Shown in pieces: positions 27,207 to 44,397 of a stretch of DNA of 46,138 nucleotides. This stretch comes from Anaerolineae bacterium (GTDB lineage Bacteria; Chloroflexota; Anaerolineae; Aggregatilineales; Phototrophicaceae). A program made the translations under genes and the position numbers. The DNA is taken from assembly GCA_019912985.1 (NCBI GenBank), contig JAIOHN010000764.1, forward strand, positions 1-46,138. The letters run 5' to 3'. The notes under the pieces were generated by a model, which saw only the letters and a list, made by a program, of their open reading frames with translations, made no database searches and was not told where the DNA came from. Every line of letters begins with the position of its first letter. Positions within the stretch are counted from its first letter, which is position 1.

Positions 27207-27222
27207 TTTACCTATGCAGAGT

Positions 27223-27254
27223 CAGCCCCCGGCGTTTACCGCTGCCGGGGACTG
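27223..27254 (-). promoter_or_regulatory. Intercistronic stem-loop after the left-arm binding protein
   Basis: CAGCCCCCGGC (27223-27233) and GCCGGGGACTG (27244-27254) form an 11-base stem with one mismatch and a 10-base loop, between the binding-protein and rhamnosidase genes. It parallels the hairpins at 9121 and 33190. Confidence 0.6.
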
Positions 27255-27282
27255 CTCTCAAAGGACAACTGCCTGGAAATTT

Positions 27283-28947: not shown

Positions 28948-29067
28948 AATTTCTCCTAAAACTCAATCTATACGGATGAAGTGCGCAAATAAGTAAGTAT
29001 GTACTGTTCTTTGTCCGTGCCTCTCCTCCTTGCTCCAATGAGCCTGTACACCGCTGACTAGACTAAT

Positions 29068-30078
29068 TCAGGCTGTATCGCCGATGAGCAATTCCACCGG
29101 CAGCATGATCTCGCGCTCGACTTCTTTTCCATCAATCAAATCCATCAGGAGGTCAACCGCGGTCGCCGCAACATCTAACCAGGGCGCATGAACCGTCGTA
29201 AGCTTGTAAGCTGGCCGCACGCCGAGGGAAACACCATCAAACCCCGCCAGGGCCAGATCATCTGGAATGCGGATGCCAAGTTTTTCGCAATCTTCAATAA
29301 AGACGTAGGCATGAGAATCCACCCACGAGACTACCACTGTGGGTCGTTCCTCAGGAGCGGATTGAGTGAGCAGCTCGACCTCTCTGCGGGTAATATGACC
29401 GTCGGATGATTCGTTGCTCACCGTCAATGTCAGACCCAGTTCCGTCGCAGCCTGCAAAAACGCATCCCGGCGGCGCACGGTCGAGGTGTGGGTTAATGCG
29501 TCAGCACGGTAATGGACTCGCTGATGTCCTTTATCTACCAGATACTGCGCCAGTAAATAGGACCCTGTGCAGTCATCGACGACTACCGACGGGGTCTCTG
29601 GTTGGCTGTTGGCGATGCAGACAATCGGCAGGTGAGAATTGAGCAGCTTATCCATGACCGGGCTTTTCGGTGTCGGCAGCACGACCAGCCCGTCAATTTT
29701 GCCGCCCGCCAGTGATGAATAGATGTCGTCAACCGAACTGCGCTCGAAACTGCCGAAAATCAGCAAATCCTGGTGGTGATGGTGGCAGCTTTGCTGGAGT
29801 CCATTGAGGACGGTGGCGATGAAAGGATCATGGACATCAAGCGATTCGTGACCGGTGTAGTAGCCAATGATGTTGGTGCGCTGCCCGCGCAGGGCCAGGG
29901 CGACGGCGTTGGGAGTGTATCCCATATCTTTGGCAGCCTTCAGCACACGCTGACGCGTGGCTTCGGAAACGCGCGTGCCGCCATTTGAGGAACCATTCAT
30001 GACCACCGAGACGGTCACGCGGTTGACTCCGGCTGCATTCGCTACATCAGTGACTGTGGGTTTGCGCTTTCTAGGCAC
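29068..30078 (-). CDS. LacI-family transcription regulator, left
   Basis: A 336-residue regulator. The N-terminal HTH is TVTDVANAAGVNRVTVSVVMNG, where Val replaces the common Arg of TVSRVLN. The hinge region GYTPNAVALALRG follows, then a periplasmic-binding-type effector domain ending DGKEVEREIMLPVELLIGD. It starts at GTG 30078 with no clear ribosome site. Its promoter overlaps the 20-base palindrome at 30097, so autorepression is likely. It lies upstream of the binding protein and catabolic genes on the same strand and probably controls the left arm. The effector should be the imported sugar or a derivative. Confidence 0.93.
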   Translation of the reverse strand: MPRKRKPTVTDVANAAGVNRVTVSVVMNGSSNGGTRVSEATRQRVLKAAKDMGYTPNAVALALRGQRTNIIGYYTGHESLDVHDPFIATVLNGLQQSCHHHHQDLLIFGSFERSSVDDIYSSLAGGKIDGLVVLPTPKSPVMDKLLNSHLPIVCIANSQPETPSVVVDDCTGSYLLAQYLVDKGHQRVHYRADALTHTSTVRRRDAFLQAATELGLTLTVSNESSDGHITRREVELLTQSAPEERPTVVVSWVDSHAYVFIEDCEKLGIRIPDDLALAGFDGVSLGVRPAYKLTTVHAPWLDVAATAVDLLMDLIDGKEVEREIMLPVELLIGDTA

Positions 30079-30160: not shown

Positions 30161-30189
30161 TTGCTTGCGGAAATTAAATGCATTATAGT
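30161..30189 (+). promoter_or_regulatory. Promoter of the right LacI gene, TTGCTT-17-TATAGT
   Basis: TTGCTT at 30161-30166 and TATAGT at 30184-30189 have 17-base spacing. The start would be near 30196, inside operator 2, giving a leader of about 78 bases. Confidence 0.55.
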
Positions 30190-30190
30190 T

Positions 30191-30204
30191 TGTACACGTG
30201 TACA
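30191..30204. promoter_or_regulatory. LacI-type operator 2, 14-base palindrome
   Basis: TGTACACGTGTACA is a perfect 14-base palindrome with a central CG, directly downstream of a -10 element. It shares TACACGTGTA with operator 1 but differs in the outer bases, so the two regulators may bind their own site, or both. Confidence 0.7.
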
Positions 30205-30273
30205 TTTTGTGCATGTGAATCAAAAAGATACAGACGAAACAAACTTATTGAATTTTATTTTGGAATTTTCCTT

Positions 30274-31356
30274 ATGCGCTCGAGCAATAAAAAGTCGGGC
30301 AATACTACTATTGTTGACATCGCTCGGGAGGTGGGCGTCTCTCATGCCACCGTCTCTCGCGTGTTAAATAACCGCCCCGGTGTGAAAGAGAGTACCCGTC
30401 AAGAAATCCTGGCTGCTGTCCAGCGGTTAGGCTACACCGTGAACCAGCAGGCGCGGCGGCTGGCAGGCGGGCGGTCGCATGTGATTGGCCTGATTATCTC
30501 GGGCCTGACCCACGGTTATTCCAATACAGTGCTGGCAGGCATCGAGGACGAGATCAGCCAGACCGATTACGATCTGCTGCTGTACAGCAGTCACTCGCGC
30601 CAGCGCCGCCAACAGTTTGAAGATTCCTATGTCGACCGCCTGACGAATGGTCTGTCAGATGGCCTGCTGATCCTCTCCCCGTTTTTCTCGCTTGGTTATC
30701 TCGACACGCTGGAAAAAAAGGGATTCCCCTATGTGCTGGTCGATTACTACGAGCCATCACACCAGAGTCCGATCATCCACGCCACCAACTGGCAGGGCGC
30801 GTATGATGCGACTGAATACCTGATTCAACTGGGACACCAGCGGATCGGGTTTATCACCGGTTGGGACCCCCACCCTTCCAGCGGTGAGCGGTTGGCCGGT
30901 TATAAAGCCGCGCTGGAAGCACATCAAATTTCATTCCAGCATGAACTCATAGCGGGCGGTGATTTTTTGCAATCTGGCGGCTACAAAGCTGCTCAAAAGC
31001 TGCTGACACTACCCGCGCCACCTACCGCGATTTTCGCCACCAGTGATGATATGGCGATTGGCACCCTGGAAGCTGCTCGCGAACGTGGGATGCAAGTTCC
31101 GGCTGATTTGTCGATTATTGGTTTTGATGACATCCCTCAAGCCAGCCTGGTGTATCCGAAACTGACTACGGTGAGCCAGTCCCTACCCGAGATCGGACGA
31201 ACCGCTGTCCGCACGTTGATGCGTTATATCGAAACTCCCGACTGTCCCCGCCAGCAACTCGAAATCCAGACGCGCCTCATCATACGGGATAGCTGCCAGC
31301 CGCCTCTTGGCCGCCACTCCCTGAACGGCGCGCAGCGCGTGGACAGGCTAACTTGA
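30274..31356 (+). CDS. LacI-family transcription regulator, right
   Basis: About 360 residues from the ATG at 30274, just ahead of the HTH (TTIVDIAREVGVSHATVSRVLNNRPGVKE), which is fully canonical. The frame is open to 30178, but that stretch includes operator 2 and does not look like protein. The hinge GYTVNQQARRLAGG and effector domain (FATSDDMAIGTLEAARERGMQVPADLSIIGFDDIP) follow. It is divergent from the other LacI gene and precedes the right-arm transporter operon on the same strand. Autoregulation through operator 2 and control of the promoter at 31382 are likely. Confidence 0.93.
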   Translation: MRSSNKKSGNTTIVDIAREVGVSHATVSRVLNNRPGVKESTRQEILAAVQRLGYTVNQQARRLAGGRSHVIGLIISGLTHGYSNTVLAGIEDEISQTDYDLLLYSSHSRQRRQQFEDSYVDRLTNGLSDGLLILSPFFSLGYLDTLEKKGFPYVLVDYYEPSHQSPIIHATNWQGAYDATEYLIQLGHQRIGFITGWDPHPSSGERLAGYKAALEAHQISFQHELIAGGDFLQSGGYKAAQKLLTLPAPPTAIFATSDDMAIGTLEAARERGMQVPADLSIIGFDDIPQASLVYPKLTTVSQSLPEIGRTAVRTLMRYIETPDCPRQQLEIQTRLIIRDSCQPPLGRHSLNGAQRVDRLT

Positions 31357-31511: not shown

Positions 31512-33176
31512 ATGAGCGAAAAAGGTTTAAATCGTCGTCAATTTTTGAAGGCATTGGGTGCCAGCGGGGCAGGTGTGGCTGCCGCTGCTGCTGGTCTTCC
31601 CGTAGCGGCTGCATCTGGTCGTGCGCTTTCTCCGGCCAATGTTGCCCGCGCGCAGAATGCTGAAATCGTCCTGCAAACGGCTAGCTGGCCTTATAATCCC
31701 CTGCCGGAGGCTGAGCCGGAAGGTGGCTACTCGGCTTATGAGCAGGCGCTGACATTGTGGTTGGAAGATAATCCCAATGTCCGCATCGAAACCGTGGAAG
31801 TCGGCATCTGGGATACCTCGGCACTGCTGACCGCCATTGCGGGTGGTACGGCACCGGCCTACTTCTCCAGTGGTGTAATCGGCAGCTGGAGTGTGGCTGG
31901 TTTGCACGCGGCTTACACACAGGGTCTTGTGGCTGACATCACCGAGCAGTTCCAGGCCTACAATTTCAATGACAAGTTCAGCGATCTGATGAAGGCTGGT
32001 GCTGTCTGGTACACGCTTGGCGATCAGGTTTTCGGTGTTGCCAATGAAGTCGCGCCAGGCAACGGTATTTATTACCGCAAAGACTGGCTGGCGGAAGCCG
32101 GTTTGCCAGAACCCACGGTTGATTGGACATGGGATGATGTGCGCGAATACGCCAAAGCACTGACCACGGCTGATCGCAAAGGTCTGGTGACACAAAACTG
32201 GGGCATGGGCTGGCAGTTGGGTGCTGAAGGACTGGGCGAGAACAATCTGCTCAGCCGAATCCCCGACCCCAGCAGCAGTTGGAACTGGCGCTGGGACTAC
32301 AGCTCGCAGCTTGAGACCTACGAAAACACCATCAATCGCTATCGTGGAATGGCCTTCGAAGATGAGTCTATCCTCTCCGATGTCACGTTCAACGATGGTT
32401 CCGTGGCGCAATCGTTCTATAACGAAGAAGCCGCGATGGTCACCAACCCCTCGCAGTTCTACACCCGTGTGACTGAGCCATGGCCTTACGCACTGGCGCA
32501 GAACCTGGATAAACCGATGGAAGAGCTGGTCGGTTTTATGACCCATCCGCGCGGTATGAACGGCCATATCAACCCGGCTTCGCGCGTCCTCATTCCACCC
32601 ACTGGCCTCAACCCGGATCTTTCCAGTGCAGAAAAAGATGCCGCGCTGAATCTGTACAACTACATGGAGATGGAAGACGGTTTTGACCTGCAGCGTCGTT
32701 TGCTGTTTGAAGAAACTGGCGACCTCAAGCAGGCCTTCTCAGTCTTCCCCTTCCCGCGTGCCAAAGACACGATTGACGGGGTAGAAGGCACAGCAGCGGA
32801 TGCCTGGGGTGAGGATTTCATCGCGGTGCTGGATTACCATGCCAAGGTGGTCAGCGGTTATCCCGAAAATGGTCTGTACTTCCCGGCTGAGGAAAACATC
32901 GGGCCGACGGTGGATGCCTGGACTGATGCGCAGTCGACCTTCAGCTACGAGCGTGGCGACCTGGATATCCCGGCCATCCTGAAGCAGGCAGAGGACACCC
33001 GCAACCAGCAGGCCGCGGGCTTTACCTCCAGCACACCGGATGATGTATTTATCGAGGGCGCAACCGCCTACTATGCGGCTCATGATGCCTACTGGTCAGA
33101 GTTCGCGCCAGATTTCCACGAAAACGTCTTTAGCCCGTGGTACGAGTCGGTGATTAAACCGGCGCTCGGCCTCTAA
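31512..33176 (+). CDS. Tat-exported sugar ABC substrate-binding protein, right arm
   Basis: A 554-residue paralogue of the product at 27283, with twin-arginine signal GLNRRQFLKALGASGAGVAAAA and cleavage near ARAQN. The mature domain runs NAEIVLQTASWPYNPLPEAEPEGG, YRKDWLAEAGLPEPTVDWTWDDVREYAKAL and ends APDFHENVFSPWYESVIKPALGL. The region between residues 240 and 400 diverges most from the left paralogue, which fits different ligand preferences. An AAAGGA site lies 7 bases before ATG. It heads the operon with permeases at 33270 and 34219, so it is the cognate binding protein of that importer. Confidence 0.93.
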   Translation: MSEKGLNRRQFLKALGASGAGVAAAAAGLPVAAASGRALSPANVARAQNAEIVLQTASWPYNPLPEAEPEGGYSAYEQALTLWLEDNPNVRIETVEVGIWDTSALLTAIAGGTAPAYFSSGVIGSWSVAGLHAAYTQGLVADITEQFQAYNFNDKFSDLMKAGAVWYTLGDQVFGVANEVAPGNGIYYRKDWLAEAGLPEPTVDWTWDDVREYAKALTTADRKGLVTQNWGMGWQLGAEGLGENNLLSRIPDPSSSWNWRWDYSSQLETYENTINRYRGMAFEDESILSDVTFNDGSVAQSFYNEEAAMVTNPSQFYTRVTEPWPYALAQNLDKPMEELVGFMTHPRGMNGHINPASRVLIPPTGLNPDLSSAEKDAALNLYNYMEMEDGFDLQRRLLFEETGDLKQAFSVFPFPRAKDTIDGVEGTAADAWGEDFIAVLDYHAKVVSGYPENGLYFPAEENIGPTVDAWTDAQSTFSYERGDLDIPAILKQAEDTRNQQAAGFTSSTPDDVFIEGATAYYAAHDAYWSEFAPDFHENVFSPWYESVIKPALGL

Positions 33177-33189
33177 ATTTTCAGGCTTA

Positions 33190-33216
33190 CCGGGCGGTGA
33201 TTGGTCTGCCGCCCGG
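33190..33216 (+). promoter_or_regulatory. Intercistronic stem-loop after the right-arm binding protein
   Basis: CCGGGCGG (33190-33197) and its perfect complement CCGCCCGG (33209-33216) enclose an 11-base loop. A second small GCCCC-GCC-GGGGC hairpin lies at 33243-33255, just before the permease ribosome site. It should protect the binding-protein message and lower permease expression. Confidence 0.6.
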
Positions 33217-33269
33217 AGGTCGCTTTCAGCAAAAGCAGTATGGCCCCGCCGGGGCAGCAAGGAGTTTTC

Positions 33270-34202
33270 ATGGCACAAGAGAGTGTTCGCGTAACTACTC
33301 CACTCGAAACAGAAGACCAGGGCCAGGAACAGGTGCAAACCAAGGTCACCCGCCGTGGCCGCATCGAAAAATGGCTTTTCCTGACCCCGGCAGTCCTTTT
33401 TCAGATCAGTTGGGGTTGGTATCCACTGGTGGTCGCTTTCCTGCTGAGCTTTACCGATGCCCGCCCACGCGGCCCCATCAGCTGGACAGGTATCGAAAGT
33501 TATACGCGTGTCTGGAATGACCCGCTGACCTGGCAGGCATTTCAAGTGACCTTCACCTATGCGATCATGTCCATTGTTCTGACATTCATGATCCCCATTT
33601 TCGTGGCGATTCTGCTGATGGAAATGCCACCGCGCCACATGCGCTGGATGATGCTGTTGTGGTTCCTGCCCTTGAGCGGCATTGCTTCCACCATTCTGTG
33701 GCGCTATCTGTATAACGCCCAGTACGGCCTGTTCCAGTATGTCGCGACCGATGTGCTTGGGTTAGCGCCTCAGCCTTTCCTCAACAGCGGCGATCAAGTG
33801 ATTTTCTGGTTGATCTTCCCCGGCATTCTATTGTTCGGTCCGGGCCTGATTTACATGGCCGGGCTGCAAGGGATTCCGCAGTCGTATTATGAAGCGGCTG
33901 AGGTGGAGGGAGCCAGCTTCTGGCGCAAGATCTGGACGATTACGCTGCCGCGTTTGCGTCCGATCATCGCCATGACCCTGACATTCGCCATTATCGGCAC
34001 GCTGCAAACCTTCGACTGGCCGCAAATTATGACCGGCGGACAACCGGGGGGTGCCAGCCGAACGGTGGTGATGTATCTGTACTCACTGCTCAATAACCTG
34101 CGCTATGCGGACGCGACCGCGCTGGCGATTGTGTTGTTCGCAGTAATTTTCATCATTACGGTTATTTACCGCACCGTCTTTAAAGAAGACCCGGACGCAT
34201 AG
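33270..34202 (+). CDS. Sugar ABC transporter permease, MalF-like
   Basis: 310 residues from the ATG at 33270, which has an AAGGAG site; the frame extends to 33201 but crosses the hairpins. A charged 35-residue N-terminus precedes six membrane segments. The EAA loop (QSYYEAAEVEGASFWRKIWTITLPRLRP) carries Glu in place of the usual Asp in the D-G pair. It forms the channel with the product of 34219. TGGQPGGASRTVVMYLY near the end is the usual periplasmic loop of this family. Confidence 0.92.
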   Translation: MAQESVRVTTPLETEDQGQEQVQTKVTRRGRIEKWLFLTPAVLFQISWGWYPLVVAFLLSFTDARPRGPISWTGIESYTRVWNDPLTWQAFQVTFTYAIMSIVLTFMIPIFVAILLMEMPPRHMRWMMLLWFLPLSGIASTILWRYLYNAQYGLFQYVATDVLGLAPQPFLNSGDQVIFWLIFPGILLFGPGLIYMAGLQGIPQSYYEAAEVEGASFWRKIWTITLPRLRPIIAMTLTFAIIGTLQTFDWPQIMTGGQPGGASRTVVMYLYSLLNNLRYADATALAIVLFAVIFIITVIYRTVFKEDPDA

Positions 34203-34218: not shown

Positions 34219-35250
34219 ATGGCATTATTCCCGAAAGTTGGACGCACACAGCCCCGCCTGCGTTTCGCATGGTATACGGTGATCGCCCTGCTGCTGTTTG
34301 GCATCATCCTGCATCTGCTGCCGTTCTATTACATGATTACCACCTCATTTAAGACGACGCAGGAGACCTTCGCTATCCCGCCGACACTATGGCCGCAGGA
34401 GCCATCCACCAAAGCCTGGGACCTGATCCTCAGTGTGACCACGGCCAACAGCAGCAGCGAACGAATCCGCAACCTGCTGCCGCAGCCGATGCATATCTAC
34501 TTTCGTAACTCGATGGTTCAGGTGTTGGGGGCGATGGCCCTTTCGCTGCCGGTGACGGCCTTCGCTGCCTATGCTAACAGCAAGCTCCAGAGAGGACGCA
34601 GCGCCCGCTGGTTCTTCCTGTTCTTTATCGGCACGTTGATGCTGCCGTTCGCGGTGACGCTGATTCCATCGTTTTTGTTGACGCGTAACTTCCCCTTCCC
34701 CACACCGAACCCGCCATTATTGCCAGGAAGTGAGGACCCCTTCCCCACCTTGCGCATCTGGAACACACCCTGGGCCATTATCATTCCAGCGGGATTTAAC
34801 GCCTTTAACTTCCTGCTGTTCAAAGGTTTCTTTGATACCATCCCCAACTCGATCATCCAGGCGGCGCGGGTCGATGGCGGTTCGGAATTTAACATCTTCC
34901 GCCGCATCGTGTTCCCCATGAGTATCCCGGTGTTCGCAGTGGCGGCCTGGTTCCAGTTCGGCGCATTGTGGGATTCATTCCTGTGGCCGCTGGTGGTGCT
35001 GCAAAGTACCGATGTCATCCCCATGTCAGTGGCGATCAATAACCTGATTCAGGCCTTCCAGCAGGCGGGAATGACCAATGCAGATCAGGCGGCAGGCGCA
35101 TCGCTGGCCTTCCAGGAAGCGCTGAACGCGGGTCTATCGTGGCCGGGCCTGATGGTGCTGGGCATTTTACAGACGATCCCGGTGTTTCTCATGTTCATCA
35201 TCTGCCGCGAATACCTGCTCAAGGGTGTCCGCCTGCGTGGGTTGAAGTAG
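34219..35250 (+). CDS. Sugar ABC transporter permease, MalG-like
   Basis: A 343-residue permease, about 60 residues longer than usual. The additions are in the periplasmic loops, for example TTANSSSERIRNLLPQP after the first segment and FPTPNPPLLPGSEDPFPTL in the middle. The EAA loop is NSIIQAARVDGGSEFNIFRRIVFPMSIP. An AAGGAGG site precedes ATG, 16 bases after the previous gene. The extended loops face the binding protein and may contribute to recognising two different binding proteins, but that is inference. Confidence 0.92.
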   Translation: MALFPKVGRTQPRLRFAWYTVIALLLFGIILHLLPFYYMITTSFKTTQETFAIPPTLWPQEPSTKAWDLILSVTTANSSSERIRNLLPQPMHIYFRNSMVQVLGAMALSLPVTAFAAYANSKLQRGRSARWFFLFFIGTLMLPFAVTLIPSFLLTRNFPFPTPNPPLLPGSEDPFPTLRIWNTPWAIIIPAGFNAFNFLLFKGFFDTIPNSIIQAARVDGGSEFNIFRRIVFPMSIPVFAVAAWFQFGALWDSFLWPLVVLQSTDVIPMSVAINNLIQAFQQAGMTNADQAAGASLAFQEALNAGLSWPGLMVLGILQTIPVFLMFIICREYLLKGVRLRGLK

Positions 35251-35259
35251 GAGCAGATC

Positions 35260-36378
35260 ATGGCGAAAGTTGACTTGCGCAATATCGTCCGCAATTACGG
35301 CGTGCAAGAGGAGGAAGCCTCGCGCTTTGACCGCGACCGGCCTGCGCTGAACAACATCAACCTGACGATTGAGGATGGTGAAATTCTCAGCGTGGTCGGG
35401 CCTTCGGGCTGTGGCAAAAGCACACTGCTCAAGGTTGTGGCCGGGCTGGAATTCCCCGATCAGGGCCAGGTGCTTTACAACGGCTATGATGTCTCCCAGG
35501 TCGAGCCGCAAAAGCGCGGTATCGGCATGGTCTTTCAGGATTATGCGCTCTATCCCACGATGAAGGGCAAAGGCAACCTGCACTATTACTTCGAGGTTCA
35601 CCAGCGAACCGAGGAAGAAATGGAAGAGCGGGTGCATGAAATCGCGCGGATTATGGGTGTGGGCTTCGACCTGCTGATGGGCCAGAAAACTGATACGCTC
35701 AGCGGCGGTGAGCAGCAGCGCGTCGCCATTGGTCGCTGTATCGTGCGTGACCCGCTGGTGTTCCTGATGGACGAGCCGATCAGCAATCTGGATGCCAAGC
35801 TGCGCGAGAGCACACGCATGGAAATCAAGAAGATGCTGCGTAAGTTCAAAGTGACAACGCTGTATGTCACGCACGACCAGCAGGAAGCCATCTTCATGGG
35901 CGATCGCATCGTCGTCATGCGTCAGGGTAATCTGGAACAGGTTGGCTCCTATGATGACCTGTACTATACGCCCAGCAACCTGTTTGTGGCGACGTTTATC
36001 GGTGCGCCGCCGATGGCAATCTTGCCTGTCAGCCACGAGGGTGGCACCCTCACGCTGGCAGATGGGCAAACGCTGGTGCTGCCGGATTACATCGCCGGGG
36101 AGCTGCCCACAGGTGCGATGCGCATGGGGGTGCGCCCCGAAGGATGGATGCTGGGTGAAGGGCTGACCCTGCCGGTGCGCCATATCGAGCGTATCCCCAC
36201 CGAGCAGGCGGCGTTCATTCACGGCTCCATCGCGGAGAAGAATATCGCGGCGGTGGCACCGCTGGATTACCCGCAAGCGGACCAGGTGCAGATGATGCCC
36301 AACTGGGATCAGATTTATTTCTTTAGCGCTGAAGATGAAACACCCCTTTATACGCCAGGGGTGCCAGAACTCTTTTAG
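35260..36378 (+). CDS. ABC transporter ATPase 1 (UgpC/MsmX-like)
   Basis: A 372-residue ATPase. Walker A is GPSGCGKST at residues 47-55, the signature is LSGGEQQR, Walker B is VFLMDEPISNLD and the switch is VTHDQQE. An insertion (VQEEEASRFDRDRP) lies before the first strand end, and the stretch after the Q-loop reads PTMKGKGNLHYYFEVH in place of the common HMTVYENIAFGL. This stretch contacts the permease EAA loop, so coupling may be special. A TOBE-like regulatory domain follows from about 245. An AGGAGC site precedes ATG. It is one of three ATPases in this operon. Confidence 0.93.
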   Translation: MAKVDLRNIVRNYGVQEEEASRFDRDRPALNNINLTIEDGEILSVVGPSGCGKSTLLKVVAGLEFPDQGQVLYNGYDVSQVEPQKRGIGMVFQDYALYPTMKGKGNLHYYFEVHQRTEEEMEERVHEIARIMGVGFDLLMGQKTDTLSGGEQQRVAIGRCIVRDPLVFLMDEPISNLDAKLRESTRMEIKKMLRKFKVTTLYVTHDQQEAIFMGDRIVVMRQGNLEQVGSYDDLYYTPSNLFVATFIGAPPMAILPVSHEGGTLTLADGQTLVLPDYIAGELPTGAMRMGVRPEGWMLGEGLTLPVRHIERIPTEQAAFIHGSIAEKNIAAVAPLDYPQADQVQMMPNWDQIYFFSAEDETPLYTPGVPELF

Positions 36379-36444
36379 TCGGTAGTGGGCGCTGGCCGGA
36401 ACCGTGGTAAGCGCTCAGGATGCGACAGGGTGTGAGTAAATAAA

Positions 36445-37569
36445 ATGACATTGATTCAGGTAGATAATTTAACGAAGCAGTTTGAGAATGAGAAAATCGC
36501 CGTCAATGACGTCAGCTTTCAGGTCAACGAGGGTGAATTTTTAGTGCTGGTCGGGCCATCTGGTTGCGGCAAAACGACCACGCTGCGGCTGCTGGTCGGG
36601 CTGGAAAGTGTGTCCTCTGGCAGCATCCGCTTTGGCGAACGTGTCGTCAATGAAATTCGCCCGCGTGACCGCAATGTGGCGCTGGTGTTTCAGGATTACG
36701 CAGTGTTCCCGCACATGAATGTATTTGAGAACATCGCCTATGGGCTGCGAGCACGCGGCGGCTACTCGCGCGACGAAATCCAATCGCGGGTGAACAATGC
36801 CGCGAAGATGTTTCGCATTGACCCGCTGCTCAAGCGCAAGCCGCGCCAGCTCAGCGGTGGTGAGCGGCAGCGCGTGGCGCTGGCGCGTGCCATGGTGCGC
36901 GATGCCGAGCTGTATCTGTTCGATGAGCCGCTTTCCAACCTTGATGCGCAGCTACGGCATGAAGCGCGTGAGGACATCATGCGGCTGCATCAGGAAAAGC
37001 AGAAACCCACCGTCTATGTTACGCATGACCAATCAGAGGCGATGGCCCTCGGTGATCGTATCGCTGTGATGCGTCTGGGTAACATGGAGCAGATCGGCAC
37101 TGGCACCGAGCTTTATAACCATCCGGTCAATATGTTTGTGGCATTTTTCATCGGCGCGCCCAGCATCAACCTGTTTGATGTGACGCTGGAAGCGGACAAT
37201 GGCGATCTTTACGCCAGGGCTGAGGACTTCCGCGCACGCATACCGGATCAATTCAAAGACCGCTTAAGCGATCATGTTGGTCAAATGGTAAAGATGGGAA
37301 TCCGGCCTGAAGATTTGCACGTGCCGAAGAAAGCGCCGTTCGAGGTCAACGAGGACAACACGATTGAAGGGGTGCTGAATGAGATCGAGCCAACCTCTAC
37401 CGGCTGTGCGGCGTACCTCAGCACCGAGACCACCGAAAAAGACTATATCGCCACCTTCAAGCTGCGCCTGCCAGCCAGCTATCTGGGGCAGACGATTCCG
37501 CTGGGTATTAACATGGATAAAGTCCAGTTCTTTGATGCTCGCAGCGAAAAATCGCTGCTGTATGCCTAG
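36445..37569 (+). CDS. ABC transporter ATPase 2 (UgpC/MsmX-like)
   Basis: A 374-residue ATPase with Walker A GPSGCGKTT (37-45), Q-loop VFQDYAVFPHMNVFENIAYGL, signature LSGGERQR, Walker B LYLFDEPLSNLD and VTHDQSEA. The C-terminal TOBE-type domain contains MGIRPEDLH and GINMDKVQFFDARSEKSLLYA. It is close to the sugar-importer consensus, unlike ATPase 1, so it is a good candidate to power the two permease pairs in the window, including the ATPase-less importer at 9178-11027. It follows ATPase 1 by 66 bases. Confidence 0.93.
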   Translation: MTLIQVDNLTKQFENEKIAVNDVSFQVNEGEFLVLVGPSGCGKTTTLRLLVGLESVSSGSIRFGERVVNEIRPRDRNVALVFQDYAVFPHMNVFENIAYGLRARGGYSRDEIQSRVNNAAKMFRIDPLLKRKPRQLSGGERQRVALARAMVRDAELYLFDEPLSNLDAQLRHEAREDIMRLHQEKQKPTVYVTHDQSEAMALGDRIAVMRLGNMEQIGTGTELYNHPVNMFVAFFIGAPSINLFDVTLEADNGDLYARAEDFRARIPDQFKDRLSDHVGQMVKMGIRPEDLHVPKKAPFEVNEDNTIEGVLNEIEPTSTGCAAYLSTETTEKDYIATFKLRLPASYLGQTIPLGINMDKVQFFDARSEKSLLYA

Positions 37570-37583
37570 TCAGGTGCAGAGAT

Positions 37584-38285
37584 ATGCCCTTTTTCGATGA
37601 TACCGGCGTCAAGACCGAAGTCGAGCGCGGGCCGCTGTGGTCGGCTTTTTCGACTTTCGCCAGCCAGCTTGAGCGGATGATTGTGGTAAATCTCGGCTGG
37701 TCGGTACAGCTTTTGCCCGCCATCATCGGCATCGCCTTCTTTCAGCTTCCCACATGGCTGCGGCTGCTGCTGATTATTTACACACTGGCAGCCCTGCCCC
37801 CGGCGACCGCAGCACTGTATGGTGTTACGCATGAAGTCGCCGATGATGAGCACATCAACCCCGATGTGGTGCGCGATATGCTGCGCCGCCTGGCGCTGCC
37901 GGGCTTAAAGACGCTCACACCGCTGTATGGGTCGCTGGGCTTCCTGGCATGGGCGGCGCAGAACACCGGCTCAATTCTGCTGGTGAGCGCCCTGCTGCAA
38001 CTGGCGCTGCTGATTGAACTGGTGAGCGCGCATTATTGGGGGCCGCTGCTGGTCGAAAACCCACAGCACTCCGCGCTGGCGGTGCTGCGCGACTCGCTGC
38101 TGATGGTATGGCGCTATCCCTCACAGACGGCACTGCTGACCGGCGCGGTCGCGCTGGCGCTGCTGTTAGGCACAATCTCGATTGGCGGCTTGTTTCTGGC
38201 CGTTCCAGTGATTATTGCACTTTTACAGACTTATATGTTTCGGACAATCAAGCAGGGGAACCATGGGACAGTTACAAGTTATTGA
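37584..38285 (+). CDS. YesL-like (DUF624) membrane protein
   Basis: A 233-residue protein with about five membrane segments and an N-terminal segment LERMIVVNLGWSVQLLPAIIGIAFFQLP that resembles the YesL family. YesL proteins are typically encoded with oligosaccharide or pectin/rhamnogalacturonan importers in Firmicutes, and their exact role is unknown. RDMLRRLALPGLKTLTPLYGSLGFLAWAAQ in the middle also fits. The C-terminus overlaps the start of ATPase 3 by 23 bases, so the two are probably coupled. The assignment is from pattern and context. Confidence 0.65.
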   Translation: MPFFDDTGVKTEVERGPLWSAFSTFASQLERMIVVNLGWSVQLLPAIIGIAFFQLPTWLRLLLIIYTLAALPPATAALYGVTHEVADDEHINPDVVRDMLRRLALPGLKTLTPLYGSLGFLAWAAQNTGSILLVSALLQLALLIELVSAHYWGPLLVENPQHSALAVLRDSLLMVWRYPSQTALLTGAVALALLLGTISIGGLFLAVPVIIALLQTYMFRTIKQGNHGTVTSY

Positions 38286-39384
38286 TGTTATCAAGCACCT
38301 GGGCGGCAATCTGATCGTCAACCAGGTGAGCTTTACCGTCGAGGAAGGTGAGTTTTTCGTCCTGTTGGGGCCTTCAGGCAGTGGAAAAAGTACACTGCTG
38401 CGCCTGATCTGCGGCCTGGAAGAGATTGAGTCCGGCCAGATTATCGTCGATGGCCGGGATGTCTCCCGCGTGCCACCGCGTGAGCGCAATCTGGGCATGG
38501 TGTTTCAGGATTACGGGCTGTATCCCAACATGAACGTGTACCAGAACATCGCTTATGGGCTGGAAGCACGCGGCGAAAAACGCGCCGTGATTGAGGAGCG
38601 TGTCCCGGCGGCGGCGGATCGCCTGGGCCTGAGTGAGCTGCTGCAATTCAATGTGGTTGATCTTTCCGGTGGTGAGCAGCAGCGTGTGGCACTGGCGCGG
38701 GCGATGGTCAAGGATGCCGACGCCTATCTGTACGATGAGCCGCTCTCGAATCTCGATCCCAAATTACGGCATAAGGCCCGCCGGGATATCATGTTCGTCC
38801 ACCGTGAGAAGCGCAAACCCAGTGTCTATGTCACGCACGATCAGGCCGAAGCCTTCGCCATGGGCGACCGCATCGCTGTGATGGGCGATGGGCGCTTGCA
38901 GCAGATCGGCTCTACGGAGGACTTGATCCACAACCCGGCCAGTGTGTTTGTTGCGGGCTTTGTCGGCTCTCCGCCGATCAACCTCATCGAAGGCGATATT
39001 GTCACGCAGAACGACCGGCTGCACTTCACTCGCGAACGGATTAACCTGGCGCTGCCGGATAAATGGAAATCACCCCTGGGCAGTTATGGATCACAGCGGG
39101 TGGTGCTTGGTATCCGGCCTGATGCCTTCGCTAAACCCGGTTTAAGCGATGAATTCGAGATCACTTTTGATAACACGATTGATGGCAAAGTCGATTTTAT
39201 CGAGCCGTTGCTGGGTGAAGCGGTGGTTGGGCTGCGGGTCAGCGACCGGATCAACATCTCGGCGACACTGGACGATTCGCTGGCCGAACAACTCATCGAG
39301 GGCGAATCCATGGCGTTGGGTGTGAATCCAGATCGCATTCTGCTGTTCGACATCCAGACCCAGCAAGCAATAAAGCCGGAATAA
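38263..39384 (+). CDS. ABC transporter ATPase 3 (UgpC/MsmX-like)
   Basis: 373 residues from the ATG at 38263, with an AGGGGAA site inside the YesL-like gene. Walker A is GPSGSGKST (36-44), Q-loop VFQDYGLYPNMNVYQNIAYGL, signature LSGGEQQR, Walker B AYLYDEPLSNLD and switch VTHDQAEA. The C-terminal domain includes LGIRPDAFAK and GVNPDRILLFDIQ. It resembles ATPase 2 more than ATPase 1. A carbohydrate importer needs one ATPase dimer, so a third gene suggests a heterodimer, alternative pairing or service to other importers. Confidence 0.93.
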   Translation: MGQLQVIDVIKHLGGNLIVNQVSFTVEEGEFFVLLGPSGSGKSTLLRLICGLEEIESGQIIVDGRDVSRVPPRERNLGMVFQDYGLYPNMNVYQNIAYGLEARGEKRAVIEERVPAAADRLGLSELLQFNVVDLSGGEQQRVALARAMVKDADAYLYDEPLSNLDPKLRHKARRDIMFVHREKRKPSVYVTHDQAEAFAMGDRIAVMGDGRLQQIGSTEDLIHNPASVFVAGFVGSPPINLIEGDIVTQNDRLHFTRERINLALPDKWKSPLGSYGSQRVVLGIRPDAFAKPGLSDEFEITFDNTIDGKVDFIEPLLGEAVVGLRVSDRINISATLDDSLAEQLIEGESMALGVNPDRILLFDIQTQQAIKPE

Positions 39385-39398
39385 GGCGAAAGAAAAAT

Positions 39399-40991
39399 AT
39401 GGCTCACCAGTCTCTGCTCTATCCCCCCTCCTCGCTCCAGAAACTGGCGCGCGGTATTGATCAAATTACCCACCTGATGGCCGCTACCCTGGGGCCGAAC
39501 CAGGGGTTCATTCTCAACCAGACTGGCCCCGGAAAACCGGAACAGCTCACTGATTCGGGCGTGATCGCCCGGCGCTTAACCGAACTGCCGGTTCCCGCTG
39601 AAGATGTCGGCGCGATGCTGGTGCGCGGCATGGCGCAGCAGATGCATGATCGCTATCAGGATGGCGCGGCGACTGCCTGTGTGCTGGCTGGTAGTATGGT
39701 GCGCGAAGCGACGAAGATGGTGGTCGCAGGCAACAACCCCATGCTCTTGCGGCGCGGCATGGCGCTGGCGGTTGAAGCAGCCAATGGCGCGCTGGCCCAT
39801 CAGTGCCAGATGCCGCAGGGCCAGAAGATGCTCAAGCAGATTGCCATGGCAACCATTGGCGATGAGGAATTAAGCGACGTCTTGGGGGAAATGTTCGATG
39901 TCCTCGGCAAATACGGCGCGTACATGGTCGAGGAATACGCCGCGCCGCATATTGATCGCGACTATATTGATGGTGGGCGCTGGCGCGCGCGGCCTGGATC
40001 CCGTCAGCTCATGCCTGCCAATGGCGTTGAACAATCGTTGAACAATATCTTGGTGATGGTGACTGATGACCAACTGGATACGTTCAACAAAGTGCGCCCT
40101 GCCCTGGAACTGGCGATGCGCGCGCCCAACAAACCACCCCTGTTAATCATCACCCGTGGTATCAGTGGGGATGCGCTGCAAGCCCTGAATCTCAATGTGC
40201 TGCAGGGCAAGCTCAATGTCGCCGTTGCTGTCTCAACCGTGCCCACGCCGCGTATTCTCGAAGAGTTGGAAGACATGGCGCTGCTGACAGGCGCGACGGT
40301 TCTGAGTCAGGCCACCGGTCGCGGCCCGGAGCATGTGCGGCCCAACGATTTAGGCCGCGCGCGCCAGATGCGCCTCGATAGCGACTCGCTGACGCTGGTC
40401 GGCGGGGCGGGCGATAAAACGCAAATGCAGCGCCGGGCGGTCGAGCTGCAAAATCGCCTGCGCCGCCTGGATAAGCCCGATGAAGAATGGGAGCGGCTGC
40501 GGCTGCGGGTCGCGCGGTTGACCGGCGGATTGTGCATTCTCAAAGTCGGCGCGTTCACCTTTAAAGACCGTGAGCGGCTCAAAGAGCTGGCGAAAAAAGC
40601 GGTGCGTGTGTTAGAACTGGCACTGGAAGAGGGCGTGGTGCCGGGTGGCGGCGCGGCTTATATCGACTGCATTCCGGCGGTGCTGGCAGCGCGCGACCAG
40701 TGCGCGACGCCAGACGAGGCTTACGGTGTACAGGTGGTGGCGCGGGCGCTGGAAACCCCGCTGCGCCAGATCGTCGCCAATCACGGCGAAATCCACCCGC
40801 CGCTGGCTGTCAGCGAAGTGCAGGCCAGGGGTGCAGGCTACGGCTTTGATGCCATGACCGGCACTTACAGGCCGATGATTGAAGCGGGCATTCTGGACAG
40901 CCGGGCGGTGGTTCAGGGTGCGCTGGAAGCCGCCTACAGTGCGGCAGCAATGGCTATAACGACTGACGTGATCGTACTCCATGGACGCTAA
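39399..40991 (+). CDS. Divergent GroEL-like chaperonin with lost catalytic Asp
   Basis: A 530-residue Hsp60-fold protein. Alignment to GroEL is gapless at key places: TLGP at 30-33 and the Asp at 52 (LTDSGVIARR) keep GroEL numbering. The phosphate loop reads QDGAATA with Asp88, where GroEL has DGTTTAT, so two Thr are Ala. Between KVGA (382-385) and EEGVVPGGG the spacing equals GroEL, and the residue at the place of catalytic Asp398 is Lys400. GILD (497-500) keeps the nucleotide-pocket Asp495 equivalent. The GGM tail is missing and no groES lies nearby. ATP may bind but normal hydrolysis seems unlikely. It overlaps the propeller gene by 11 bases. Confidence 0.88.
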   Translation: MAHQSLLYPPSSLQKLARGIDQITHLMAATLGPNQGFILNQTGPGKPEQLTDSGVIARRLTELPVPAEDVGAMLVRGMAQQMHDRYQDGAATACVLAGSMVREATKMVVAGNNPMLLRRGMALAVEAANGALAHQCQMPQGQKMLKQIAMATIGDEELSDVLGEMFDVLGKYGAYMVEEYAAPHIDRDYIDGGRWRARPGSRQLMPANGVEQSLNNILVMVTDDQLDTFNKVRPALELAMRAPNKPPLLIITRGISGDALQALNLNVLQGKLNVAVAVSTVPTPRILEELEDMALLTGATVLSQATGRGPEHVRPNDLGRARQMRLDSDSLTLVGGAGDKTQMQRRAVELQNRLRRLDKPDEEWERLRLRVARLTGGLCILKVGAFTFKDRERLKELAKKAVRVLELALEEGVVPGGGAAYIDCIPAVLAARDQCATPDEAYGVQVVARALETPLRQIVANHGEIHPPLAVSEVQARGAGYGFDAMTGTYRPMIEAGILDSRAVVQGALEAAYSAAAMAITTDVIVLHGR

Positions 40992-42723
40992 ATTGATGAC
41001 TTTTCAAGATTTTCCTGCAATTAACCTGCCAGCACCGCTGCTGGCTTTACATGCCACGCCGGATGGCCTTTGGGTCGGCGGCACGGGCGGTGTGGCGCAT
41101 TATGCAAATGGGCAGTGGACACCGCACATCGCGGGTCTGCCTCTGACTGTGATTGGCGGGCTGGCGACGGCGGAAGGCTGGTTGTTTGCAGGCGGGATGG
41201 AGGGTATCGCGCGCTCAGCAGATGGTGGCGAAAACTGGCAGTTGGCGACCGTTCACGGCAGTGCGTCAGGCATCGCCTCGATTATCACATCGCCCAATTT
41301 CGCGCAGGATACGGCGGCGCTGGCGGCCACCCTGGAAGGCGGTATTCTGCGCTCGGAAGACGCGGGGAATACCTGGACCGCCTCCAATTTTGGCTTGAGC
41401 GACTTTGAAGTATCGGCCCTGGTGTGGCTGGCTGAGGATGTCGTGGTTGCGGGAACCAGCGGCGGCATTTACCGCTCGCCGAATGGGGGCCGTGCCTGGC
41501 GCGCTGTGGATGGAACCAGCGAACCCGTCGCGGCGCTGGCACAGCTGGCGGATGGTCGGCTGCTGGCTGCATTGGAAAATGGTGGCCTGCTGGTGAGCGA
41601 CGATCAAAGCGCGAACTGGACGCCGCTGGAAAGCGACCTGCTGCGTGATCTGCCGGAGGATGCCCAGTTGACCGCCCTGTGTGTGGCTGGTGATGGCAGC
41701 CTGCTGATGGGGACCTCCAGCGACGGGATTTATCGCTCGGTCGATGGCGGTGTGCAGTGGCACCGCACGCACGAAGCGGGCGCGTTTGCGCTGGCAGCGG
41801 ATCGAGCCGGGACGATGGTTTATGCCGGGACTGGTATTGGCCTGCTGGTGAGCGAAAACAGCGGCCAGCATTTCGAGCAGGCTCCGGCCTCACCCTTACA
41901 TGACCTGCGGCAGCTGCTGATTTACCAGGGCAATCCGCTGGTTTATGGGCGCTACAGCGGTGCGCTTTATTACGAAGCTGGCTGGCTGCCTGTGGAGGAT
42001 TTGGCCCCGCCGCTAAGCCTGCTGATGATTGCGCCGGATGGTCACCTGTATGCATCGGGCATGGATGGTCTGCGCGTGCTGACGGAAGCGGGATGGATCG
42101 CCCTGGCCGAAGGTCAGGCCGGATATTTCGCGCAGATGGCTTTCCGCAAGGATGGCATGGTCTGGGCATGCAGCCACAATTACTCGCACCTCTTTCGCAG
42201 CCCGGATGGTGGGCGCACCTGGGAAACCAGCCCGACCCCGTTTGGTGTGCTGCCGCTGGTCGCGTTGGAAGCGACCGACACGCTGGTGTTCGCGATGACA
42301 TTCGACCCACGCCAGAACCTCGCGCGGTTGTGGCGCTCGTCGGATGCGGGTGTGAACTGGCAGCGCGGCGCGGAGGTGCGGACGCCGTGGCCGGTGGTCG
42401 CGACCTGCTCCGAACCGGCGATCATCGGCATTGGCACGATGATGATTGTCGAGCAGCCGAACGGTGATTGGAACCGGGCCGAAGTCGATGGCCTGAGCAG
42501 CTTCCTGGTGCGCAAGATCGTCAGCATGGGCGATGTGCTGTTGGCACTGACGACCGAGGGCCTGCTGCGCTCCGAGGATGGAGGCAACAGCTGGACACTG
42601 GTGGATGCAGATCAGTTCGACATCGGCAGCGAGGTGATTATGGACATCGCCGTCGATGTGCAGAACCCGGGTGACTTGTATGTGTTGATGGTCGGCGGGC
42701 AGGTGCGGGCTTACCGTTTATAG
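40981..42723 (+). CDS. Nine-Asp-box beta-propeller protein, cytoplasmic
   Basis: A 580-residue repeat protein without signal peptide or membrane segment. Nine Asp-box (BNR-type) motifs are seen: SADGGENW, SEDAGNTW, SPNGGRAW, SDDQSANW, SVDGGVQW, SENSGQHF, SPDGGRTW, SSDAGVNW and SEDGGNSW. They are spaced about 40-50 residues apart, with a gap in the middle where blades are degenerate, suggesting one or two 7-8-bladed propellers. Such folds occur in sortilins, sialidases and photosystem assembly factors and usually act outside the cytoplasm. Here the gene overlaps the chaperonin-like gene, so the protein may be its partner or client. ATG 40996 is an alternative start. Confidence 0.88.
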   Translation: MDAKLMTFQDFPAINLPAPLLALHATPDGLWVGGTGGVAHYANGQWTPHIAGLPLTVIGGLATAEGWLFAGGMEGIARSADGGENWQLATVHGSASGIASIITSPNFAQDTAALAATLEGGILRSEDAGNTWTASNFGLSDFEVSALVWLAEDVVVAGTSGGIYRSPNGGRAWRAVDGTSEPVAALAQLADGRLLAALENGGLLVSDDQSANWTPLESDLLRDLPEDAQLTALCVAGDGSLLMGTSSDGIYRSVDGGVQWHRTHEAGAFALAADRAGTMVYAGTGIGLLVSENSGQHFEQAPASPLHDLRQLLIYQGNPLVYGRYSGALYYEAGWLPVEDLAPPLSLLMIAPDGHLYASGMDGLRVLTEAGWIALAEGQAGYFAQMAFRKDGMVWACSHNYSHLFRSPDGGRTWETSPTPFGVLPLVALEATDTLVFAMTFDPRQNLARLWRSSDAGVNWQRGAEVRTPWPVVATCSEPAIIGIGTMMIVEQPNGDWNRAEVDGLSSFLVRKIVSMGDVLLALTTEGLLRSEDGGNSWTLVDADQFDIGSEVIMDIAVDVQNPGDLYVLMVGGQVRAYRL

Positions 42724-42732
42724 GAGACGATC

Positions 42733-44397
42733 ATGCCCCATTATGACGTGATTATCATGGGTGGAGGACCGGCTGGCGCGACAGTCGGCACGCTGGTTAA
42801 GAAGTATTCTCCACATCTGCGCGTACTGCTGCTGGAAAAAGCACACTTCCCCCGGCATCATGTGGGCGAATCGCTGCTGGCCGGGGCCAGCCCGGTGCTG
42901 AACGACATGGGTGTGTATGACCGCATCAACCAGTACGGTTTTATCGAAAAATCCGGCGCGACCTATGTCTGGGGGCATGATCGCCAGCCGTGGGGCTTTG
43001 ATTTTGATCGCGTGGTCAAGCCGCTGCTGGATCGCGGCATCGCCCTGCCGGAGATGTACAGTAAAGGCTGGCAGGTGCGGCGCAGCGAGTATGATTATCA
43101 ACTGCTGCTGCATGCCCAGGAAATGGGCGTCGAGGTGCGCCAGGGCGCGCGCGTGACCCATGTCCGGCAGGACAGCACAGGCTCGCGGGTGGTCGGCGTC
43201 GATTATCGCGACGAGGATGGCCCGGCCAGCGTCGACTGCACCTGGCTGATGGACTGCACCGGGCAGGACGCGCTGCTGGGTCATGCGCTGGATAACCGCC
43301 AGTACTCCGAGACGATGAATAATTACGCGCTCTACGGCTACTGGAGCGGCTACCAGTGGCACGAGCAGTATATGGGGCATCCGCGCTTTACGCGCATCTT
43401 CCTGGCGACCAGCGCGCGCGGCTGGTTCTGGTGCATCCCGGCCAGCGATACAGTGCTGAGCATCGGGTTGGTGACGAACCGCCAGACGCTGCAATCCCTG
43501 AAGGAGAGCAGCGCGCTCGATCTCTACCTGAGCGAGATCGAAAGCTGCCCGGAGATCATGGCGATTCTGGATGGCGCGCAGATGACGCGGCTGACACCAG
43601 ACCAGAACCGCGATCTGTACGTGGTGCAAGACTGGTCTTACGAAAGCACCCAGAAAGCCGGAAACGGTTGGGCGATGGCAGGCGATGCGGCTGGTTTTGT
43701 CGATCCCATCCTGTCATCGGGTGTGATGATCGCGCATGAACTGGGCCAGAAAGCCGCTTACGCCATCAATTCATCATTTTGCGCCACCAGCGACGCCGAT
43801 ATTCAACGCTACTGGCAGTTTTACGAGGATACTTACCGCACCTATCTCCATGCTTATCGCCAGATGGCCGAGTTCTGGTACGGGAACAACTTCCTCATGG
43901 AAAACTGGTGGTGGGAAGCCCAGCGCACCATCAACCGGACGAACGCGTTGGAGTTGAACGCGGGCGAGGCGTTCATGCGGCTGGCTTCCGGTTATGCTTA
44001 CCGGGCGGAGTCGCTGAGCCTGTTCGGGAGCTACCCGCTGGAAGAGGCGCAGCAGCTGGTCAACGGGCTTTTCGGCGTGCCATACGAAGCGGTCGACGTG
44101 CGCAGCCAGTATGCCGGGAAGCCGCTGAAGCTGAAAGCCAACGCGCAGATGGGCGAAGGGCTGTACTTCTTCCAGGGGCTGGTGCGCAAGACGCGGCGCG
44201 TGATCAACAGCGAAACCCAGGCGTATCTCGATTTGCACCCGGCGGAGGAAATCGTGCTGCGGCTACTGGATGGTGCGCACACGCTGAGCGATCTCGACCA
44301 GGTGGTCAGCCAGATTCAGGCCAAACAGCAGCGGATGCCGATCCGCAACGGGCTGGATATGCTGGTGCAGCTCGACAATCTGGGCGTGCTGGCCTGA
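42733..44397 (+). CDS. Flavin-dependent halogenase-like oxidoreductase
   Basis: A 554-residue FAD enzyme. The dinucleotide loop is IIMGGGPAGAT (7-17), followed by FPRHHVGESLL. The motif WFWCIP at 231-236 fits the halogenase WxWxIP, and GFIEKSGATYVWG has K73 where halogenases hold the catalytic Lys. GDAAGFVDPILSSGV is the second FAD motif. A C-terminal region from about 400 is longer than in simple monooxygenases and may bind the substrate or a carrier. Related GGR-type dehydrogenases share the FAD motifs but not WxWxIP. No carrier protein or flavin reductase gene is nearby, so the substrate is unknown. An AGGAGA site precedes ATG. Confidence 0.82.
   Translation: MPHYDVIIMGGGPAGATVGTLVKKYSPHLRVLLLEKAHFPRHHVGESLLAGASPVLNDMGVYDRINQYGFIEKSGATYVWGHDRQPWGFDFDRVVKPLLDRGIALPEMYSKGWQVRRSEYDYQLLLHAQEMGVEVRQGARVTHVRQDSTGSRVVGVDYRDEDGPASVDCTWLMDCTGQDALLGHALDNRQYSETMNNYALYGYWSGYQWHEQYMGHPRFTRIFLATSARGWFWCIPASDTVLSIGLVTNRQTLQSLKESSALDLYLSEIESCPEIMAILDGAQMTRLTPDQNRDLYVVQDWSYESTQKAGNGWAMAGDAAGFVDPILSSGVMIAHELGQKAAYAINSSFCATSDADIQRYWQFYEDTYRTYLHAYRQMAEFWYGNNFLMENWWWEAQRTINRTNALELNAGEAFMRLASGYAYRAESLSLFGSYPLEEAQQLVNGLFGVPYEAVDVRSQYAGKPLKLKANAQMGEGLYFFQGLVRKTRRVINSETQAYLDLHPAEEIVLRLLDGAHTLSDLDQVVSQIQAKQQRMPIRNGLDMLVQLDNLGVLA

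Follow-up and report, generated by a model that had tools for sequence, protein, structure and literature searches.

GroEL-like proteins without the catalytic Asp398 form a Chloroflexota clade mostly encoded beside a beta-propeller and, at many loci, a sugar importer

A GroEL-like protein of 530 residues that has the chaperonin fold without the catalytic Asp398 is encoded at 39399-40991, on the + strand, of the 46,138-nucleotide stretch of Anaerolineae DNA analysed here (the window). By sequence comparison it is no one-off, being part of a large, old Chloroflexota branch of such proteins, and their stable association with a propeller protein and with importers suggests that they do something other than general folding. 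Chaperonins are known as ATP-driven machines, and a natural, conserved clade in which the hydrolysis residue is gone but most of the nucleotide site survives offers a ready-made split of ATP binding from turnover. The reading that we favour, at somewhat less than an even chance, is that these proteins are nucleotide-binding, hydrolysis-impaired group I chaperonins that would serve as dedicated holding or assembly factors for the propeller and the importer. We found no description of the clade or the gene pair in the open-access literature, and nothing specific on the gene set, which is not proof of absence.

A complete but divergent group I chaperonin

The reading frame is intact and complete and lies exactly where the initial annotation had placed it. 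The protein belongs to the Cpn60/TCP-1 family (PF00118, Cpn60_TCP1; 136.8 bits, cut-off 34.3), and chaperonins in the PDB match it across residues 12-526 in a phmmer search. An AlphaFold model made with 25 sequences as input (pLDDT 87.8) adopts the GroEL fold. Foldseek matched this model to GroEL over the full length (E 1.9e-42), VIA gave a Z of 40.3 over 513 residues (rmsd 4.0) against the GroEL-ADP structure 4ki8, and the equatorial, intermediate and apical domains of GroEL are all present. The score against the TIGR02348 GroEL equivalog is 317.8 bits, short of the cut-off of 582 bits, and group II models fit poorly (48.9 bits for thermosome and less than 30 for CCT, where GroEL models score 318-322). 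Just 122.4 and 124 bits are reached against NF038370 and NF038369 (cut-off 600), the models of chlamydial GroEL2 and GroEL3, which come from another phylum and for which we know of no propeller or importer link. The chlamydial proteins resemble the window protein in being group I paralogues whose ATP-binding and GroES-binding regions are altered (PMC1892554).

The window, contig 533, belongs to a metagenome-assembled genome (1,030 contigs, 7.28 Mb, 93% complete, 8% contamination) that also carries two ordinary GroELs, one on contig 542, adjoining groES, and one on contig 66 without groES. The latter (L002, about 893-2524) has SPFH/prohibitin-like and response-regulator-like genes as neighbours. 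In a MAFFT alignment the window protein is 30-32% identical to these housekeeping GroELs, and this identity, together with the presence of two ordinary GroELs in the genome, marks it as an extra, divergent chaperonin. The absence of an adjacent groES, remarked on in the initial annotation, is borne out, the assembly's only groES being the one beside the ordinary GroEL on contig 542. An adjacent groES is not a strict hallmark of GroEL, since genuine GroELs without one exist, and groES is present in each of eight genomes checked.

Chloroplast Cpn60 forms alpha/beta mixtures, and the GroEL-like protein could by analogy be a modulating subunit that joins ordinary GroEL in mixed rings and slows or redirects them. 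In its favour, the genome has its own ordinary GroELs, groES occurs in all eight genomes checked, and the fold matches GroEL over its whole length. We nevertheless consider this quite unlikely given the low identity to the same-genome GroELs, the placement of the genes in importer or propeller operons away from groESL and, in the alignment of the clade, the failure to retain the inter-ring contact residues E434 and E461 and the loss of the GGM tail. In most clade members a short conserved Glu-Pro ending replaces the GGM tail; the window protein and the group closest to it have no such ending.

Residue 398 and the nucleotide pocket

Lys400 (codon 40596-40598, + strand) stands at the position of the catalytic Asp398 of E. 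coli GroEL, as had first been proposed from a hand alignment, and no gap intervenes across KVGA...EEGVVPGGG either in phmmer alignments to PDB chaperonins or in MAFFT alignments to E. coli GroEL and the genome's own GroELs. The numbering of the E. coli row in these alignments was checked against known pocket residues. In the AlphaFold model Lys400 lies within a long helix (residues 388-411) that is the counterpart of helix M. An alignment error at this site was considered and rejected, since neither pairwise nor multiple alignments have a gap here and the sister sequences that keep Asp398 (AEDAV...) form a bridge. The other motif assignments made at the outset also hold. DGTTTAT is changed to DGAATAC, such that D88-G89-A90-A91-T92-A93 (39660-39677, + strand) corresponds to GroEL D87-GTTTA with the Mg ligand Asp88 (equivalent to Asp87) retained and T89 and T90 replaced by Ala; the Gly-Pro loop is kept as TLGP; and Asp52 is kept in a register consistent with 40-70 relatives, including sister proteins reading LDDGA. 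Loss of Asp52 by a one-residue shift was possible in a 4-sequence alignment and was dropped after wide sampling brought in the LDDGA sisters.

Across the clade, window included, residue 398 is never Asp in 54 members (Lys in 18, Arg in 16, Gln in 8, Glu in 5, His in 3, Asn in 3 and Ala in 1). Conservation of the Lys in homologues, a check proposed at the outset, thus holds for the loss of Asp398 (54/54) but not for Lys itself (18/54). Thr90 is likewise absent from all 54 (Ala in 49, Val in 5). Against this, Asp87, Gly88 and Asp495 are invariant (54/54 each), as are Gly32 and Pro33 (53/53); Thr30 is kept in 52/53, Gly414-416 are retained (Gly414 and Gly416 invariant or nearly so), and the Asn479 position is mostly Asp. 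By column entropy site 398 ranks at the 59th percentile, while Asp87 and Asp495 show no variation. Asp52 is kept in 40/53 and largely replaced by S, N or K in a second subclade. Overall, the likeness to GroEL/Cpn60 (group I, TIGR02348) extends over the whole length in fold and alignment and includes Asp87, Gly32, Gly414-416 and Asp495, whereas the clade lacks Asp398 and Thr90 and the window protein lacks the GGM tail and a groES partner gene and sits in an importer and propeller operon. The K, R, Q, E, H, N and A found at one site provide many natural sequences for testing what a catalytic site can become.

As controls, D398, D52 and D87 are all kept in 80/80 GroELs from viral contigs, and Asp398 is present in all Chloroflexota GroELs outside the clade except one. 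A separate loss is seen in L137 (contig 44 of genome G049), a GroEL of the ordinary type that does not belong to the clade and has Ala in place of Asp398 (VQAGLSATQAA).

In GroEL, D52, G53, T89, T90 and D398 touch the gamma-phosphate and D87 touches the Mg ion (PMC8440773). Set against these contacts, the residue counts indicate that the gamma-phosphate contacts are mostly lost in the clade and the Mg/adenosine side is retained. The engineered D398A mutant of GroEL, from which the same catalytic residue has been removed, binds ATP normally, has 2-3% ATPase and releases substrate slowly, and encapsulation by it is still possible (PMC3813556, PMC3326522). The initial premise that GroEL without Asp398 binds ATP with hydrolysis blocked is thus right as to binding and overstated as to a full block. 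The clade differs from D398A in being natural and conserved, with Lys, Arg, Gln, Glu, His, Asn or Ala at the site, and in carrying more pocket changes; because of the further loss of T90, and partly of D52, turnover would be expected to be slower than in D398A, or nil. That these proteins bind but do not cycle ATP can fairly be inferred from the pocket.

A contrasting possibility is a slow but active chaperonin, in which Asp52 or a slow route hydrolyses ATP and the genome's GroES completes a long-dwell cage for a special client. D398A GroEL, with its 2-3% ATPase, still encapsulates and folds protein (PMC3326522), and Asp52 is mostly kept, both as this reading would have it. Its weak points are the loss of Thr90 in all members and of Asp52 in much of the second subclade (to S, N or K), the variation of helix I and of the GroES-contact positions across the clade, and the lack of an adjacent groES, and we regard it as unlikely. 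The apical substrate-binding positions Y199, Y203, L234 and V264 vary in the clade, which counts against the favoured holding-factor reading, since clients may be bound otherwise than by GroEL or not at all.

A single early loss of Asp398 in a branch under purifying selection

The set of GroEL-like proteins was assembled from a search among 60 relatives, then class-wide and phylum-wide searches, plus weaker matches in the order, and comprises 54 Asp398-less Chloroflexota sequences (window included) and five related ones that keep Asp398 (L114, L115, L116, L117 and L120). The closest homologue among the 60 relatives is 49% identical and lies in genome G022; the nearest relative with the GroEL-like gene is Anaerolineae bacterium Bin_50_3. 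The class-wide search added 24 further GroEL-like sequences and the phylum-wide search 16 further clade members and one ordinary GroEL, and the second subclade was recovered from the weaker matches within the order. L119, picked up in the homologue search, was set aside as an ordinary GroEL. Full-length comparison covered the Chloroflexota, and all genomes were scanned with short peptide patterns. The scan returned one member, L038 (on the same contig as L036), a single match that reflects a limit of the method, since the genome searches found many members. Plasmid or viral relatives were also considered and discarded, the best matches being 33-34% identical, which is the level of ordinary GroEL.

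In an IQ-TREE phylogeny of 66 rows, with near-copies dropped, all GroEL-like proteins form one clade (support 100/100), within which the Asp398-less rows form a single branch (100/98) that excludes the five Asp398-keeping rows. Since the Asp398-less rows are monophyletic and the nearest sister group retains Asp398, the residue was lost once in the clade. Its members represent several families and two or more groups of class level. In 13 close pairs, of which one belongs to the Asp398-keeping sisters, dN/dS is 0.046-0.16, and by this measure the branch is under purifying selection since its early loss of Asp398. These values, the open frames, the invariance of Asp87 and Asp495, and conservation of a single clade across this breadth of families and class-level groups led us to reject the idea of a decaying, functionless duplicate of a spare GroEL; the loss of the catalytic residue and of the GGM tail is what such decay might look like, and we rate it as very improbable indeed.

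The beta-propeller partner

The commonest neighbour of the GroEL-like gene encodes a beta-propeller protein. In the window this is an Asp-box tandem propeller of 580 residues (40981-42723, + strand) whose 5' end, from the ATG, shares 11 bp with the 3' end of the GroEL-like gene. Its placement among F510_1955 and YCF48-type propellers differs by profile (PF14870, 42.6 bits, above the cut-off of 27; NF045728, 137 bits, under the cut-off of 175), and its AlphaFold model (pLDDT 90.5) has as nearest PDB folds the tandem propellers of GH74 enzymes; we do not claim glycosidase activity. It is probably cytosolic, as no signal peptide is seen in the sequence.

A propeller gene is adjacent at 45/54 clade loci and at 0/7 ordinary GroEL loci (Fisher p 2.6e-5, with loci treated as unrelated). 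The loci are phylogenetically related, and simple counts of this kind overstate their independence. In five genomes (G000, G022, G171, G116 and G488) the propeller beside the GroEL-like gene is the top profile match genome-wide, far above the next. Tandem propellers of about 580-645 residues accompany the large subclade that includes the window, and mostly short ones of about 300 residues the other. A tandem propeller also follows two of the Asp398-keeping sisters (L114 and L120), and the genome of a third (G562; L115) has a propeller relative on a separate contig (L124). An apparent GroEL-propeller fusion in L026/L121, with an open frame of more than 700 residues, proved to be a frame overlap, the propeller sitting in another frame.

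Nine of the 54 loci lack a propeller. In the f46 group (L064, L066, L069, L070 and L072) the GroEL-like gene, with Lys at 398, is without any propeller; a transaldolase-like gene comes next in 4/5, and L064, L066 and L072 show sugar-importer genes nearby.

The sugar-importer operon

The sugar-uptake operon described in the initial annotation is real, a complete CUT1 set of solute-binding protein, two permeases and MalK-type ATPase in which all genes run on the + strand. The GroEL-like gene is the ninth, and gaps between genes are at most about 160 bp, with some overlaps. In order, the operon encodes a LacI-type regulator (30178-31356; PF00356, PF13377), an extracellular solute-binding protein (31512-33176; PF01547, 56 bits against 26), CUT1-type permeases A (33201-34202; PF00528, 38.7 bits) and B (34219-35250; PF00528, 49.5 bits), a first and a second MalK/UgpC-type ABC ATPase (35260-36378 and 36445-37569; both from profile matches), a putative DUF624/YesL-like membrane protein (37584-38285; a weak match, E 0.02 and under the cut-off, at a position conserved in homologous operons) and, directly upstream of the GroEL-like gene, a third MalK/UgpC-type ATPase (38263-39384; PF00005, PF17912). 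The propeller gene and a flavoprotein gene follow the GroEL-like gene in the operon. The open frame of the third ATPase begins at 38215, and its NF008653 score of 336.7 bits is under that model's cut-off. Compared with usual CUT1 (maltose/UgpC-type) importers, which it otherwise resembles in full, the operon stands out for its three ATPase genes, the chaperonin-like protein and the propeller. Three different ATPase genes (35260-39384) in one importer operon are unusual and recur in L104 and L107.

The neighbourhood in G022 matches the window gene by gene from the LacI-type regulator through the propeller. Linkage to a transporter, which the initial annotation proposed to test among homologues, is conserved in related species (the window, L036, L063 and nine loci of another class), and about half of the 54 loci have no adjacent importer. 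Co-directional importer genes are evident in about 26/54 (the window, L036, L063 and L104-L112; L065, L066, L072 and L076; L123, L127, L128, L130, L131, L133, L138, L139, L141 and L145), a count that may miss some importer parts because neighbours were assigned by BLAST against few reference genes. As background, the assembly of 7.28 Mb holds 144 permease-domain matches, from which we roughly estimate about a one in ten chance that a random gene has a co-directional permease no more than a dozen genes away. The permeases sort into at least four types; members of one type share 54% identity or more, and those of different types about 25-45%. At least four importers that are not orthologous to one another are thus involved, and the link between chaperonin and importer arose or was renewed several times. 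An association of a basic residue at 398 with importer linkage (Fisher p 0.004) was discarded, as independent pairs on the tree give no signal.

Repeated pairing with different importers would also suit a protein that acts purely as a scaffold or sensor in regulating the importer, folds no client, uses nucleotide as a structural cofactor or an ADP/ATP read-out and has the propeller as its effector. Such a protein could do with a pocket in which the gamma-phosphate contacts are largely gone and the Mg and adenosine contacts remain (PMC8440773). It fits poorly with the many members that have a propeller and no importer nearby, and with the f46 members that have importer genes without a propeller, and we think it rather unlikely.

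Proposed function

The reading that we favour, of a holding or assembly factor, begins with the loss of Asp398, once and early, in a Chloroflexota branch of group I chaperonin paralogues, after which the branch has been maintained by purifying selection. The proteins would still form GroEL-like rings and bind nucleotide and would hydrolyse ATP very slowly or not at all, such that the GroEL/GroES cycle would not be run. Nucleotide would then be a structural ligand or slow switch and not a fuel. CCT handles propellers, and in the same manner the GroEL-like protein may bind the co-translated propeller protein; where an importer is co-encoded, it may assist assembly or gating of the importer at its cytosolic ATPase side. 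Neither the propeller nor the importer can be obligatory, as about half of the loci are without an importer and nine without a propeller, and a role in sugar import itself is unproven.

Another propeller is carried by BBS7. The chaperonin-like proteins BBS6, BBS10 and BBS12, which have an altered hydrolysis motif, stabilise BBS7 in assembly of the BBSome (PMC5534436); they are a working parallel only, being eukaryotic and of the group II lineage, with no common origin of the specialisation. A bolder version, which we hold to be speculative and doubtful, is that a non-cycling, nucleotide-liganded ring and the Asp-box propeller form a fixed two-component machine that has been recruited time and again, each time independently, to different ABC sugar importers, whose assembly, gating or regulation it would serve; the chaperonin would then be a transport accessory and not a folding engine.

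Other genes of the neighbourhood

Four proteins of the operon gave no PADLOC match to anti-phage defence systems. A divergent set on the - strand (24813-30078) encodes an alpha-L-rhamnosidase (24813-27206), a TAT-signal protein (27283-28947) and a second LacI-type regulator (29068-30078), and this set hints at rhamnosides as substrates. Downstream of the propeller, a flavoprotein of the halogenase / geranylgeranyl-reductase type (42733-44397, + strand; PF04820, 101 bits, and synteny) is co-conserved in L105, L106 and L108-L112.
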